Positions 7,846 through 52,208 of a stretch of DNA of 64,000 nucleotides are shown here, in pieces. A program made the translations under genes and the position numbers. The notes beneath the pieces were generated by a model that was given only the letters and a program-made list of their open reading frames with translations, did no database searches and was not told the origin of the DNA. Origin of the DNA: Ureibacillus thermophilus (GTDB lineage: Bacteria; Bacillota; Bacilli; Bacillales_A; Planococcaceae); contig NZ_CP036528.1 in assembly GCF_004331915.1 (NCBI RefSeq), positions 2,055,651 to 2,119,650 on the forward strand, written 5' to 3'. The first letter of the stretch is position 1. Every line of letters begins with the position of its first letter.

Positions 7846-10557
7846 ATGACAAAGAGCAACTTACACAACAGCCGTGCTTCTTTTGAACTGAACGGTAAAA
7901 CTTACTACTATTACCGTTTAGAAGCATTAAAAGAAGCAGGCATCGCAGACGTATCACGCCTACCTTATTCCATCAAAGTTTTATTAGAATCCGTTTTACG
8001 TCAATATGATAACTATGTAATCAAAGAAGAACACGTAAACAACTTAGCAAAATGGGCAGAAGGAGCAGATCCAGAAGGTGAAGTTCCATTCAAACCTTCT
8101 CGTGTCGTTCTACAAGACTTCACAGGTGTTCCTGTAGTTGTAGACTTAGCTTCTTTACGTTCTGCCATGAAAGAACTTGGTGGAGACCCATCAAAAATCA
8201 ATCCAGAAATTCCGGTTGACCTTGTAATCGACCACTCTGTACAAGTAGACAAATACGGTACTCCAGACGCTCTACAAGCAAACATGGATTTAGAATTTGA
8301 ACGCAACGCTGAACGTTACAAATTCTTAAAATGGGCTCAAACTGCATTCGATAACTTCCGTGCAGTTCCACCTGCAACAGGTATCGTACACCAAGTAAAC
8401 TTGGAATACTTAGCTCCAGTTATTCACGTTAAACAAAACGAAGACGGTTCTTTCGAAGCTTATCCAGATTCTGTAGTTGGTACGGACTCCCATACAACAA
8501 TGATCAACGGTCTTGGCGTACTTGGTTGGGGTGTTGGTGGTATCGAAGCAGAAGCTGGTATGCTTGGACAACCATCTTACTTCACAATTCCAGAGGTTAT
8601 CGGTGTTAAATTAACTGGTAAACTTCCAAACGGCGCGACTGCAACTGACTTAGCGTTGAAAGTAACTCAAGTATTGCGTAAACGCGGCGTAGTTGGTAAA
8701 TTCGTTGAATTCTTCGGCCCTGGCGTAGCTACATTGCCACTTGCAGACCGTGCAACAATTTCCAACATGGCTCCAGAATACGGTGCAACTTGCGGTTACT
8801 TCGCAATTGACAACGAAACACTTAACTACTTGCGCTTAACTGGCCGTGATGAAGAACATGTACAATTAATCGAAAAATACTTAAAAGAAAACAATATGTT
8901 CTTCGATCCAAACTTCGAACCAGTTTACACTGACGTATTAGAAATTAAATTAGACGAAATCGAACCAAACCTTTCTGGTCCAAAACGTCCACAAGACTTA
9001 ATTCCACTTTCAGAAATGAAAAAACGCTACCGTGAAGCAGTAGTTGCTCCAATGGGCGTTCAAGGTTTCGGTTTAACAGAAGATGAATTCAGCAAAACTT
9101 CAACAATCAAATTTGCTGATGGCGAAGAATTAGAAATGCCTACAGGTGCTGTAGCAATCGCTGCTATCACTTCTTGTACAAACACATCTAACCCATACGT
9201 ACTAATCGCTGCTGGTCTTGTTGCGAAAAAAGCAGTTGAACTTGGCATTAAACCACCAAGATGGGTAAAAACTTCATTAGCACCTGGTTCTAAAGTTGTT
9301 ACAGGTTATTTAAAAGATTCTGGTCTACAAGATTACTTAGACCAAATCGGATTCAACACTGTAGGTTACGGCTGTACAACATGTATCGGTAACTCCGGTC
9401 CATTGCTTCCAGAAATTGAAGAAGCGATCAAATCCAAAGACTTGTTCGTAACTTCTGTACTTTCTGGTAACCGTAACTTCGAAGGCCGTGTTCATCCATT
9501 AGTAAAAGCTAACTACTTAGCATCTCCACCACTTGTTGTTGCTTATGCTTTAGCTGGTACAGTGGATATCGACCTACAAAAAGATCCAATCGCTAAAGAC
9601 AAAAACGGTAACGACGTATTCTTCAATGATATTTGGCCATCATCTGAAGAAGTATACGCTATCTTAAATAAAGTTGTTACACCTGAATTGTTCAAAAAAG
9701 AATACGAAACAGTATTCACTGCAAACGAAAAATGGAATGCAATTGAAACATCAACTGAGTCTCTATACACATTTGATGAAAATTCAACTTACATCCAAAA
9801 CCCGCCATTCTTCCAAGGTCTTTCTAAAGAGCCAGCTCCAATTCAAGAGCTTAAAGGCTTGCGCGTAATTGCGAAGTTTGGGGATTCTATTACAACTGAC
9901 CACATTTCACCAGCTGGTGCAATTGGTAAAGATACTCCTGCAGGTAAATACCTACAAGAAAAAGGTGTTGCAATCCGTGACTTCAACTCTTACGGTTCTC
10001 GCCGTGGTAACCATGAAGTCATGATGCGTGGTACATTTGCAAACATCCGTATCCGCAACCAAATTGCTCCTGGTACTGAAGGTGGATTCACTACTTACTG
10101 GCCAACTGGCGAAGTCATGTATATTTACGATGCAGCTATGAAATACCAAGAACAAGGAACTGGTCTTGTAGTTCTTGCTGGTAACGACTACGGTATGGGA
10201 TCCAGCCGTGACTGGGCTGCAAAAGGTACTTACTTGCTTGGTATTAAAACAGTTATCGCACAAAGCTATGAACGTATCCACCGTTCTAACCTAGTAATGA
10301 TGGGTGTATTACCACTTCAATTCATGCCTGGCGAAAACGCAGAAACTTTAGGATTAAAAGGAGATGAAACAATCTCTGTTAACTTAACAGACGATGTAAA
10401 ACCTCGCGATATCTTAACAGTAACTGCAGTTTCTCCAGACGGCAAAGTAACTGAGTTTAAAGCATTAGCTCGTTTCGACTCAGAAGTAGAAGTAGATTAC
10501 TACCGTCATGGCGGTATCCTACAAATGGTATTAAGAAACAAATTAGCTGGAAAGTAA
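7846..10557 (+). CDS. acnA: Aconitate hydratase (aconitase)
   Basis: A 903-residue cytosolic aconitase of the AcnA/IRP type (B. subtilis CitB), which converts citrate to isocitrate in the TCA cycle with a 4Fe-4S cluster. The three cluster ligands are visible: Cys444 in SCTNTSNP and Cys510/Cys513 in [10 protein letters not shown]. The C-terminal swivel domain has the substrate-binding [13 protein letters not shown] and [10 protein letters not shown] segments. Its length equals the family norm. A GGGGGAT site precedes the ATG. The codon choice is strongly biased (GTA, CTT, TCT, GAA), as expected of a highly expressed gene. In B. subtilis citB lies near yneP, tlp, plsY, parE and parC, and the same order is kept here with insertions. 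Confidence 0.98.
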
Positions 10558-10570
10558 TTTCTAGCAATAT

Positions 10571-10603
10571 GAAAGCAGGTTGACTTGTTCAACCTGCTTT
10601 TTT
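10571..10603 (+). terminator. Intrinsic terminator of acnA
   Basis: GCAGGTTGA-CTTG-TTCAACCTGC followed by seven T. The stem is nearly perfect. The group IIC intron starts one or two bases after the T-run, which is the known target preference of this intron class. Confidence 0.93.
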
Positions 10604-10604
10604 G

Positions 10605-11244
10605 GTGCGCCCGGCATGTACATGAACTATAGGGTGTAAGTCCCGAACCCCGAAGACAGAAGTAGAGGTTAGCCAAGAGCAAGGGTGTCCGTGGTGACGC
10701 GGAATCTGAAGGAAGCTGGAGGCAAAACACCGGTCCGAGGAACACGAACCTCATATAAGGCTAGGTATGATTGAGTGAGTTTGCCAAACAAAACAAAGCT
10801 CTTTCTGTCGAAGGTCATATCGAGTAGATGAGGCGGATAGATGGTGTGAAAGTGCATGTACTTACCCGGGGAGGTCTGGCGGATAGGTGAAGTACGCTTC
10901 ATAACCTACTTAGCGATAAGTAGCTGAACCGTCAGAAGTCAGCAGAGGTCATAGTATTAGTTGGTCTAGAACAACTGAGAAGGACCGAACAATTAAGAGA
11001 GAATAGCCCTTGGCATTCAGTGAGTCATGATGAACACAGAAAACGTAGTACCTCACTTGAGGAAGGAAGCGGTGAATCCCGTGGGAGACCTCTTGGAGGG
11101 TGGAGTGACCACTGGCATAAGAAGACAAGCTATTCACGGAAGTTATGAAAACTTGCGTCAATTATCTTAATTGAACCGCCGTATACGGAACCGTACGTAC
11201 GGTGGTGTGAGAGGACGGGAGCTAATCACTCCCTCCTACTCGAT
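10605..11244 (+). mobile_element. Group IIC intron without reverse transcriptase gene
   Basis: The 5' end GTGCGCCCGGCATG, the internal blocks GGGTGTAAGTCCCGAA, AGGGTGTCCGTGGTGAC, GAGGAACACGAACCTC, ACAAAACAAAGCTC and TACCCGGGGAGGTCTGG, and domain V at about 11171-11213 match the group IIC ribozyme of the Oceanobacillus iheyensis type. Domain V has the CGC triad, a TACG-GAAC-CGTA tip and an AC bulge. Domain VI ends in CTCCTACTCGAT, taken as the 3' splice site. Domain IV, where the maturase/reverse transcriptase gene should lie, holds only about 180 bases, so the element is non-autonomous. It lies just behind the acnA terminator, typical of class C introns. The 5' boundary is firm; the 3' boundary may shift by a few bases. 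Confidence 0.92.
11027..11170 (+). CDS. Short residual ORF in intron domain IV
   Basis: A 47-codon ORF starting with two Met codons fills domain IV of the intron and stops just before domain V. In group IIC introns the reverse transcriptase gene starts in this position. No reverse transcriptase motif (such as YADD) remains. It may be the joined ends of a deleted maturase gene or a chance ORF. Translation is not supported by a clear ribosome binding site. Confidence 0.25.
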   Translation: MMNTENVVPHLRKEAVNPVGDLLEGGVTTGIRRQAIHGSYENLRQLS

Positions 11245-11249
11245 CGAAA

Positions 11250-11285
11250 TAGGAAGCTGGGACATAAACATAAAAATTAAACGGC
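11250..11285. repeat. Remnant of intergenic repeat family B
   Basis: GGAAGCTGGGACATAAACATAAAAATTAAA matches the end of the family B repeat at 14762-15041 and 44559-44660 (GAGGCTGGGACATAAACAAAAAATTAAA). The rest of the element is missing here. Confidence 0.6.
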
Positions 11286-11402: not shown

Positions 11403-12383
11403 TTATAAAAGTTCTTTTCTTAATTGTTCTGGAGATTTTGGTGATAGCAGACCGAATGGAATATCGAAAACAGTTTTTGCACCTTTATCTCCATTTTGAT
11501 TCAATCGGTATGCTGCGCGTGCATAGGCAACAAGAACGCTTGATGTAAATGTTGGATTGCTTTCAAGATTTAAGCTGAATTCGATAATTTGTTTATCTCC
11601 TAATCCGCTTACGCCGCTTCGGATGACGAATCCTCCGTGTGGCATGCCGCTATGATTTAGCTTCAGCTCTTCTTCTGAAATGAAGTGTACAGTTGTATCA
11701 TATTCATCAAAATAGTTTGGCATTGTTTTAATTTCGTGTTCAACTTTCGCAGCATCTGCACCTTCTTCCAATACTACAAAACATTCACGAGCATGTTTTT
11801 CGCGAGTGGAAAGCTCAGGATTTTCTCCGCTGCGCACACGATTGACTGCACCTTCAATTGGAATTGTATATTGCACGGCATTTTTAACACCTTCAATGCG
11901 GCGGATAGCATCAGAGTGGCCTTGGCTTACCCCTTTGCCCCAGAATGTATATGTATTTCCAACTGGTAATACCGCTTCACCAATCAAACGATTCAAAGAG
12001 AATAAACCTGGATCCCAACCAACGGAAATGATGGCTACTTTTCCTGCTTTTTCACTAGCTGCATTCACTTCATCGAAATATTCGGGAATTTTTGCATGCG
12101 TATCAAAACTATCAATAGTATTGAAATATTGTGCGAAATATGGTCCTTGTTCTGGCAAATCTGTTGCAGAACCGCCACATAAAATCATCACATCAATTTC
12201 ATCTTTATAAGATAGGGCATCATCCACATGAAGCACTTTCGCATTTGAATTAATTGTTACTGATTGTGGATTGCGTCGCGTAAAAACTGCAACTAATTCA
12301 GTATCTGGGTTTTGTTGAATTGCTGCTTCAACACCACGGCCTAAGTTTCCATATCCAACAATCCCGATTCGTATTTTACTCAT
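11403..12383 (-). CDS. ddh: meso-Diaminopimelate D-dehydrogenase
   Basis: A 326-residue NADP-dependent enzyme that interconverts L-2-amino-6-oxopimelate (tetrahydrodipicolinate) and meso-diaminopimelate in one step, the short route to lysine and the peptidoglycan cross-linker. It opens with the Rossmann motif GIVGYGNLGRG. CGGSATDLPEQGP and SVGWDPGLFSLNR are the conserved substrate-binding segments, and length matches the family. The sequence is very close to the thermostable Ureibacillus enzyme as I remember it, which suggests the host group. The ATG has an AGGAGGAAGGAG site. It is monocistronic with its own terminator. Such enzymes are of enzymological interest because variants make D-amino acids. 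Confidence 0.95.
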   Translation of the reverse strand: MSKIRIGIVGYGNLGRGVEAAIQQNPDTELVAVFTRRNPQSVTINSNAKVLHVDDALSYKDEIDVMILCGGSATDLPEQGPYFAQYFNTIDSFDTHAKIPEYFDEVNAASEKAGKVAIISVGWDPGLFSLNRLIGEAVLPVGNTYTFWGKGVSQGHSDAIRRIEGVKNAVQYTIPIEGAVNRVRSGENPELSTREKHARECFVVLEEGADAAKVEHEIKTMPNYFDEYDTTVHFISEEELKLNHSGMPHGGFVIRSGVSGLGDKQIIEFSLNLESNPTFTSSVLVAYARAAYRLNQNGDKGAKTVFDIPFGLLSPKSPEQLRKELL

Positions 12384-19619: not shown

Positions 19620-19686
19620 CTCGAATATTGCATTTCTCTATTGGATATGTTAGGATATTCTTAATTTTATATGGAATTAATACTTT

Positions 19687-19791
19687 CTTATCAAGAGAAG
19701 TGGAGGGACTTGGCCCAATGAAACTTCAGCAACCTCTAACGGATGTTAGAAAGGTGCTAATTCCAGCAAGGTGTAACCTTGGGAGATAAGA
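19687..19791 (+). ncRNA. SAM-I (S-box) riboswitch
   Basis: The conserved S-box order is complete: P1 strand CTTATCAAGAGAAG, GTGGAGGGACT, GGCCCAATGAAACTTC, CAGCAACCTC, AAGGTGCTAATTCCAGCA and the closing GGGAGATAAGAG that pairs with the first strand. It lies about 90 bases before metA and is followed by an expression-platform terminator. With S-adenosylmethionine bound, the terminator should form and metA be switched off. Confidence 0.96.
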
Positions 19792-19811
19792 GAGTGTGCA
19801 TGAAATATTTG

Positions 19812-51892: not shown

Positions 51893-52122
51893 TTCAATAA
51901 AAAAGGCTTCCCGAAATTAAAGGACGGGAAGCCGTGGTACCACCTTTATTGACATAAGAAACCTTATGTCCACTCAAAGTTGGTAACGTCAACAACACGC
52001 CAGCACCTACTCTAGTTCAGCGCTGGAGCTAGAAAGCCCATTCGCATTATGGACTGCACTAGCTTGCACCAACCGCTAGCTCTCTTCAGCAAATCCATAA
52101 TACTACTCTTTTTCATCATCGC
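51893..52122 (-). ncRNA. T-box leader with tryptophan (UGG) specifier
   Basis: On the minus strand the leader shows the stem I base GATGATGAAAAAGAGTA, the AGAGAGC/GGTGCAAGCTAG stem I features, the specifier-loop segment GCGAATGGGCT with codon UGG (Trp), and the T-box AAAGGTGGTACCACGG. The terminator GGCTTCCCGTCC ... GGGAAGCC with TTTTTT follows (51893-51933). Uncharged tRNA-Trp should bind and allow trpE-trpG expression. The specifier call rests on the position just before a purine-rich bulge on the 3' side of stem I. Confidence 0.92.
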
Positions 52123-52208
52123 TTCCATATGAAGTTGAAATTATTTTATTATAAAATTTTTGATTATTCAATAAAAATTCCTCTAATTTCTTAGAAATGC
52201 CCCACGTT

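Follow-up and report, generated by a model that had tools for sequence, protein, structure and literature searches.

The 64,000-nt stretch of the Ureibacillus thermophilus genome analyzed here (the window) contains a complete ORF-less group IIC intron, located between the convergent genes acnA and ddh (Table 1). The intron starts with GTGCG and ends with CTCCTACTCGAT. A sequence-only reading of this DNA had placed it at 10571 to 11244; the end was right, while 10571 proved to be where the hairpin of the acnA terminator begins. This terminator consists of a 13-bp stem (10571-10583/10589-10601, -18.2 kcal/mol) with a T-run at 10598-10603, and a single base, G10604, separates the T-run from the intron, in agreement with the one or two bases read earlier. 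A simple terminator scan missed the hairpin, which we attribute to the pairing of the stem into the T-run. Class C introns insert behind intrinsic terminators and normally carry a reverse transcriptase (RT).

On the 3' side, the C at the IBS3 position of the window copy may weaken pairing with the 3' exon. Short repeats lie in the flank between 11245 and 11390, some near AGGAAGCTGGGACATAAAC and a longer one starting at about 11272; they have many matches in the same genome and in relatives.

Table 1. Features of the acnA-ddh region (window coordinates)
Feature	Position	Strand	Basis or remark
acnA, aconitate hydratase, upstream gene	7846-10557	+	ORF; NCBIfam TIGR01341, 1474 bits
acnA intrinsic terminator: intron target site and 5' exon	10571-10604	+	fold; same hairpin without intron in G022
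IBS1-like TTTTG	10600-10604	+	sequence; pairs with CAAAA at 10789-10793; presumed assignment
ORF-less group IIC intron, complete, 640 nt	10605-11244	+	Rfam; alignment with 24 other copies; consensus fold
Domain I	10610-10870	+	consensus fold with compensatory changes; Rfam D1-D4-3
EBS1-like CAAAA loop	10789-10793	+	invariant in 29/29 ORF-less copies
Domain II region	10871-10940	+	consensus fold; presumptive domain name
Domain III region	10947-10986	+	consensus fold, Rfam D1-D4-1; presumptive domain name
Domain IV, reduced, ~184 nt; arm upstream of ORF (expected place of IVa) kept	about 10990-11173	+	consensus fold
Remnant frame: N-terminal 38 codons of RT leader, then 9 codons and stop	11027-11170	+	
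ORF-deletion junction CACGGAAG/TTAT	11142-11143	+	identical in 30/30 ORF-less copies examined
Domain V, CGC triad and 2-nt bulge (CG)	11175-11206	+	Rfam; consensus fold
Domain VI (bulged A: 11238), including the 3' end of the intron	11208-11244	+	consensus fold
First base of 3' flank (IBS3 position), C	11245	+	T in 42/46 copies
ddh, diaminopimelate dehydrogenase, downstream, convergent on acnA	11403-12383	-	NCBIfam TIGR01921

Ribozyme anatomy and structural constraint

The Rfam models D1-D4-3 (10688-10860, 145.8 bits) and D1-D4-1 (10902-10985, 75.5 bits) matched over their full length, and Intron_gpII, which covers domains V and VI, matched at 11174-11244 with 47.0 bits; all three reached the gathering score. 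The minimum free energy of 10560-11260 was 5.3 standard deviations below that of dinucleotide shuffles (z -5.3). The complete 5' end, the domain V with its CGC triad and the domain VI that had been read from the letters were thus borne out by Rfam and by the consensus fold, as was the domain IV of about 180 bases. Folding of domains I to III, which had been proposed as a check, gave the same answer: all three are present, covered by full Rfam models and by a covarying consensus fold. In the window copy none of the checked pairs is broken, the checked domain I helices are paired, and domain V and the branch-point end are unchanged; domain VI carries a C-A mismatch at alignment columns 620/626. 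By analogy, we take the CAAAA loop to be EBS1-like; it is complementary to the TTTTG of the window, a pairing that any terminator T-run would allow anyway. These results confirmed 10605-11244 as a structurally complete ORF-less group IIC intron, a kind of element that is already known.

The consensus fold was built from 25 of 29 ORF-less copies, leaving out L070 because of a domain V deletion as well as the near-duplicates L162, L173 and L116. It comprises 184 pairs with 98.7% of cells paired, and the paired fraction dropped to 37-42% in slid controls. Double-sided changes were observed at 16 of the 184 pairs, with 68 compensatory cells compared to 19.8 in shuffles, a level reached by none of 500 shuffles. 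Of the 500 shuffles, 17 reached the same count of doubly changed pairs, and further pair types showed no excess over shuffles (353/500 as high). Most of the covariation signal comes from two domain I haplotypes that differ in concert. Judged from this alignment, the ribozyme of the ORF-less copies is under structural constraint. Moreover, copies that mix the two haplotypes (L077, L170, L176, L171 and others) break exactly those domain I helices that covary elsewhere; the broken helices of these natural mosaics are therefore a record of recombination among the retroelements. L070 and L077 of the same genome and L177 of the relative G015 lack the same 7 nt of domain V; this deletion should abolish catalysis, and its sharing suggests conversion between copies.

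Loss of the RT gene and spread of the family

The intron had been treated as a lone element, a view that did not hold. A search of the 3.017-Mb genome (G000) with the whole intron gave 46 matches, and searches with the intron ends found 28 five-prime and 28 three-prime ends; a 29th three-prime match (E 0.48) was taken as chance. The window copy thus belongs to a large family. In its own genome, the 28 five-prime ends divide into 10 from ORF-less copies (602-640 nt), 7 from copies that contain RT sequence, 4 from mini forms (352-364 nt), 2 from copies of 193-194 nt and 5 from pieces of 91-101 nt. One ORF-less copy, L064, differs from the window copy at 1 of 640 positions and lies behind an unrelated terminator between unrelated flanks; this twin shares the mismatch in domain VI.

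We observed that the window copy lacks about 1.24 kb, removed exactly, directly after the 38 codons of the RT start. Both sides of this deletion are visible in RT-bearing copies of the same genome and of a relative. In the RT-bearing copy L072, for example, CACGGAAG is followed by GAGAATAACG and the RT, and then by CTCG and TTATGAAAAC. The intron had been proposed to be a deletion derivative, and these RT-bearing copies, together with the N-terminal RT remnant kept in the window, bear this out. The two breakpoints share one base only. In the RT-bearing form, AUAACG lies immediately upstream of the start codon and CGUUAU downstream of the ORF, near both breakpoints; since the two motifs are complementary, an RT skipping the enclosed hairpin is a conceivable route of deletion.

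The 29 ORF-less copies stem from six genomes: 10 from the window's own genome, 3 from G021 and 7 from G022 (both of the same genus), 1 from G015 (the fourth genome of the Ureibacillus group), 7 from Pallidibacillus pasinlerensis (G061) and 1 from Neobacillus thermocopriae. All 29 carry the identical deletion junction. A thirtieth copy with the same junction was found on plasmid pDSM4216 of Bacillus smithii, with 97.3% identity over all 640 nt; B. smithii itself was outside the RT search. Carriage by phages was considered and rejected: a comparison with 50,697 phage records gave 6 matches, none covering over 40% of the query. A literature search returned no paper on this intron family, and 0 papers for group II intron combined with Ureibacillus, which does not amount to absence from print.

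Full-length copies encoding a maturase had been suggested as a search target, and the search succeeded in a relative only. In the complete genome G021, ten RT copies span all 420 query residues, and the six that were translated are all open. The protein matches the group II RT/maturase family (TIGR04416, 436 bits), and its nearest solved structure is the GsI-IIC RT (6ar1, 8.5e-166); on these matches the RT of the parent intron is assigned to class C. The window's own genome gave 14 RT matches, all partial and none spanning the 420 amino acids, with internal deletions, a duplication and truncations. The frame of L074 is open up to a gap of Ns, and an intact RT could be hidden in this gapped copy. 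In P. pasinlerensis the RT was found as broken pieces, with no full-length RT-bearing copy, and G015 had no RT match at all despite its ORF-less and mini copies; the driver RT may have been lost from both. In the RT-bearing relative L178 (G003), domain IV shows an extremely long run of A ahead of the RT start, translated as dozens of lysines, which may be real or an assembly artefact. L080, in the window's own genome, stops where a repeated transposase-like element begins, and the end sequence of this element adjoins a 3' intron fragment in L094.

We then compared the histories of the ORF-less and RT-bearing forms. Over the first 538 nt, a tree requires 8 state changes for the ORF-less copies, at least 5 of them forced, and rejects a single ORF-less clade (p-AU 8e-11); recombination or repeated deletion must therefore be part of their history. 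The base q543 behind the junction is A in 26/29 ORF-less copies, in 5/5 mini forms and in 0/13 RT-bearing copies. This linked allele points to one deletion origin for most (26/29) of the copies, and since it occurs on both domain I haplotypes, recombination would explain the tree conflict in most of them. It is absent from the window copy, from L064 and from L175 of G022. On either side of the junction, the window copy and its twin carry alleles of the RT type that resemble the outgroup; they may have kept the ancestral ORF-less state or may go back to another deletion at the identical position.

The mini forms lack intron positions 51-326, that is, most of domain I with the EBS1-like loop as well as domain II, and share their breakpoint, which lies at a 7-nt repeat. 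Four of them (L075, L081, L082 and L083) lie behind four different terminators of the window's own genome, and with L177 of G015 all five are found behind terminator hairpins. L075 and L177 occupy the same locus in two species, yet differ in domains V and VI. A tree test of a mini clade neither supported nor rejected it (p-AU 0.297 and 0.298). The copies nearest to L075 and L082 are L067 and L070, respectively, which favors deletion or conversion in different backgrounds. The mini forms may thus have dispersed as such or arisen by repeated deletions. That they form a second tier of parasites, with the target-recognition domain supplied in trans, seems quite improbable to us. If the minis dispersed as such, one mobile family would have shed first its protein and in a second step RNA functions as well.

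A class of micro-introns was considered for the 193-194-nt copies (L088 and L089, in which the intron ends are joined) and the 91-101-nt pieces (L084, L085, L090, L091 and L093), and was rejected. The break lengths of these pieces cluster at about 91-103 nt. Gaps of 100 Ns lie in or beside L067, L071 and L074, with 95-99 intron bases directly after the gap, and L089 and L090 are also near or in such gaps; the single-contig genome is thus gapped at the intron repeat. In U. thermosphaericus DSM 10633, most of the contigs found end 118-131 nt into the intron. Because of this clustering, the adjoining gaps and the contig ends inside the intron, the seven short pieces are probably assembly joins.

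Insertion sites, orientation and age of the acnA copy

All 53 five-prime junctions (28 from the window's own genome and 25 from other genomes) lie behind a terminator-like hairpin of -10 kcal/mol or better with at least 4 T in the last eight bases, compared to 51 of 3,000 random control windows. The second member of a tandem pair in G021 (L166:392-4162) was excluded from this count. At L166, where two full RT-bearing copies lie head to tail, and at L067 in the window's own genome, an intron is inserted directly behind the 3' end of another one; the domain VI hairpin of the first intron apparently served as a terminator-like target.

With dnaA at 496.6 kb, 27/28 copies are co-oriented with replication. 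Only the window copy points the other way; it is located slightly beyond the geometric midpoint, where GC skew is still positive. The sign change of the skew comes late in the window, at about 40-50 kb, and the replication terminus is therefore probably in or near the window. The co-orientation is consistent with insertion into the lagging-strand template, which passages of PMC8919778 describe for class C introns.

An acnA match was found in 12 relatives, and the downstream region was read in 8 of them (leaving out L151, L152, L154 and L156). In G022, the same terminator ends in TTTTTT, ddh is syntenic and the intron is missing. The spacer behind the terminator is a different sequence there, which limits the alignment of the empty site to its 5' side. 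The proposed comparison with a precise empty site was thus borne out on the 5' side of an intron-free acnA-ddh region, and its 3' side was not alignable. No intron was found behind acnA in G021 either. For the twin, the joined flanks of L064 align through without the intron in both G021 and G022 (query 1-598, 71-72%), and the junction in G021 matches AGCATTTTATGAA a few bases behind the terminator. By these alignments, the insertion behind acnA is a recent one in terms of the history of the genus.

Probable mobilization in trans and its alternatives

We consider it likely, at roughly 0.8, that the acnA copy is a non-autonomous group IIC retroelement that is mobilized in trans. The anatomy, covariation, shared junction, site rule, near-identical twin and intact RT of a relative were observed; the action of an RT in trans, reverse splicing and present-day splicing are inferred. 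A single exact deletion within domain IV would have removed the RT gene of a full-length intron, sparing the ribozyme and the stretch upstream of the gene where IVa is expected. An intact relative would supply the RT/maturase that, in trans, splices and binds the RNA of a transcribed donor copy. The resulting ribonucleoprotein (RNP) would recognize a terminator hairpin and its T-run (IBS1) in the single-stranded lagging-strand template, followed by reverse splicing one base after the T-run and copying into DNA. The acnA copy would owe its origin to such an event, later than the divergence of the nearest sequenced relatives. Lying behind a terminator, it would be little transcribed and harmless to acnA; splicing from acnA read-through RNA would be rare, and the host would have no need of it. 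The sequence-only reading had already suggested dependence on a maturase in trans, and this appears to be the best interpretation: the ten intact RTs of G021 speak for it, while none of the RT copies in the window's own genome is readable as intact. The latter, the missing RT match in G015, the atypical C at 11245, the rejection of a single ORF-less clade and the RT-type alleles around the junction of the window copy and its twin count against a simple version of this reading.

The other possibility raised earlier, a fossil, would be an old insertion that neither splices nor moves. The lack of a readable intact RT in the same genome, the atypical 3' flanking base and the C-A mismatch in domain VI, shared with the twin, would fit it. 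However, the checked helices show no decay, domain V and the branch-point end are unchanged, a near-identical twin exists, the syntenic locus of G022 has no intron, and the same form recurs in several genera and on a plasmid; we thus regard a fossil as unlikely. Another alternative is an origin in place, by deletion or gene conversion: a full-length RT-bearing intron behind acnA would later have lost the ORF through recombination with an ORF-less copy, and the deletion would have passed among resident copies without retromobility. Such exchange is suggested by the mosaics L077, L170 and L176, which mix haplotypes and break covarying helices, by the orthologous minis L075 and L177 with different domains V and VI, by the 7-nt deletion that L177 shares with L070 and L077, and by the failure of the ORF-less copies to form one clade over 1-538. 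For the window copy, however, the conversion tract would have to fit between RT-type alleles about 18 nt apart, and its near-identical twin lies at a site that is intron-free in relatives. Moreover, seven ORF-less copies occur in P. pasinlerensis, where no full-length RT copy was found, and one on the B. smithii plasmid. Together these make an in-place origin quite unlikely.

A further alternative concerns the ORF-less form itself, which could be reborn in each lineage by recurrent exact loss of the ORF, for example through an RT skipping the ORF-enclosing hairpin. The RT-type alleles just after the junction in the window copy, L064 and L175, the complementary motifs near both breakpoints and the tree of 1-538 are consistent with this. 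Breakpoints that share just one base, and the linked q543 A in 26/29 copies, which indicates one origin for most of them, argue against it and leave recurrent loss very unlikely.

Trans mobilization has a precedent in Thermosynechococcus elongatus, where, in the excerpts of Mohr 2010 (PMC2882425), ORF-less TeI3 introns are mobilized in trans by TeI4 intron-encoded proteins (IEPs) in an assay. As far as these excerpts describe them, TeI3 introns similarly occur as many ORF-less copies with one deletion breakpoint at diverse sites, alongside RT-bearing driver relatives; we also count the retained N- and C-terminal ORF remnants as a likeness. In contrast to TeI3, the Ureibacillus family is group IIC, targets terminator hairpins and is shared across genera and a plasmid, its driver RT is intact only in a relative, and its mobilization in trans is deduced from comparison. 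The family would be a group IIC parallel to the T. elongatus case, in which thermophilic bacilli harbor RT-bearing, ORF-less and mini forms together and a small plasmid carries an ORF-less copy. Notable features are how large and widespread the ORF-less family is, and the recombination and mini forms found within it. The compact 640-nt ribozyme and its matching RT offer direct material for tests of trans mobilization and terminator targeting.

Group IIC RNPs recognize stem-loops, according to passages of PMC10190682. GsI-IIC of Geobacillus stearothermophilus and the E.r. group IIC intron, as excerpted from PMC10190682 and PMC4424553, belong to the same ribozyme class and share the stem-loop target and, putatively, the short IBS1/IBS3. 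The class C RT of the Ureibacillus family is closest to the GsI-IIC RT, whereas the window copy differs from both introns in having no RT gene. The Oceanobacillus iheyensis intron (PMC3898094) is also a group IIC ribozyme. C.te.I1 of Clostridium tetani is likewise an ORF-less bacterial group II intron, described in passages of PMC4424553 as having no related IEP; in contrast, the window copy has close RT-bearing relatives in its own genome. Elsewhere in the window, we observed high-scoring matches to a SAM riboswitch (19685-19792, + strand) and a T-box leader (51917-52128, - strand).
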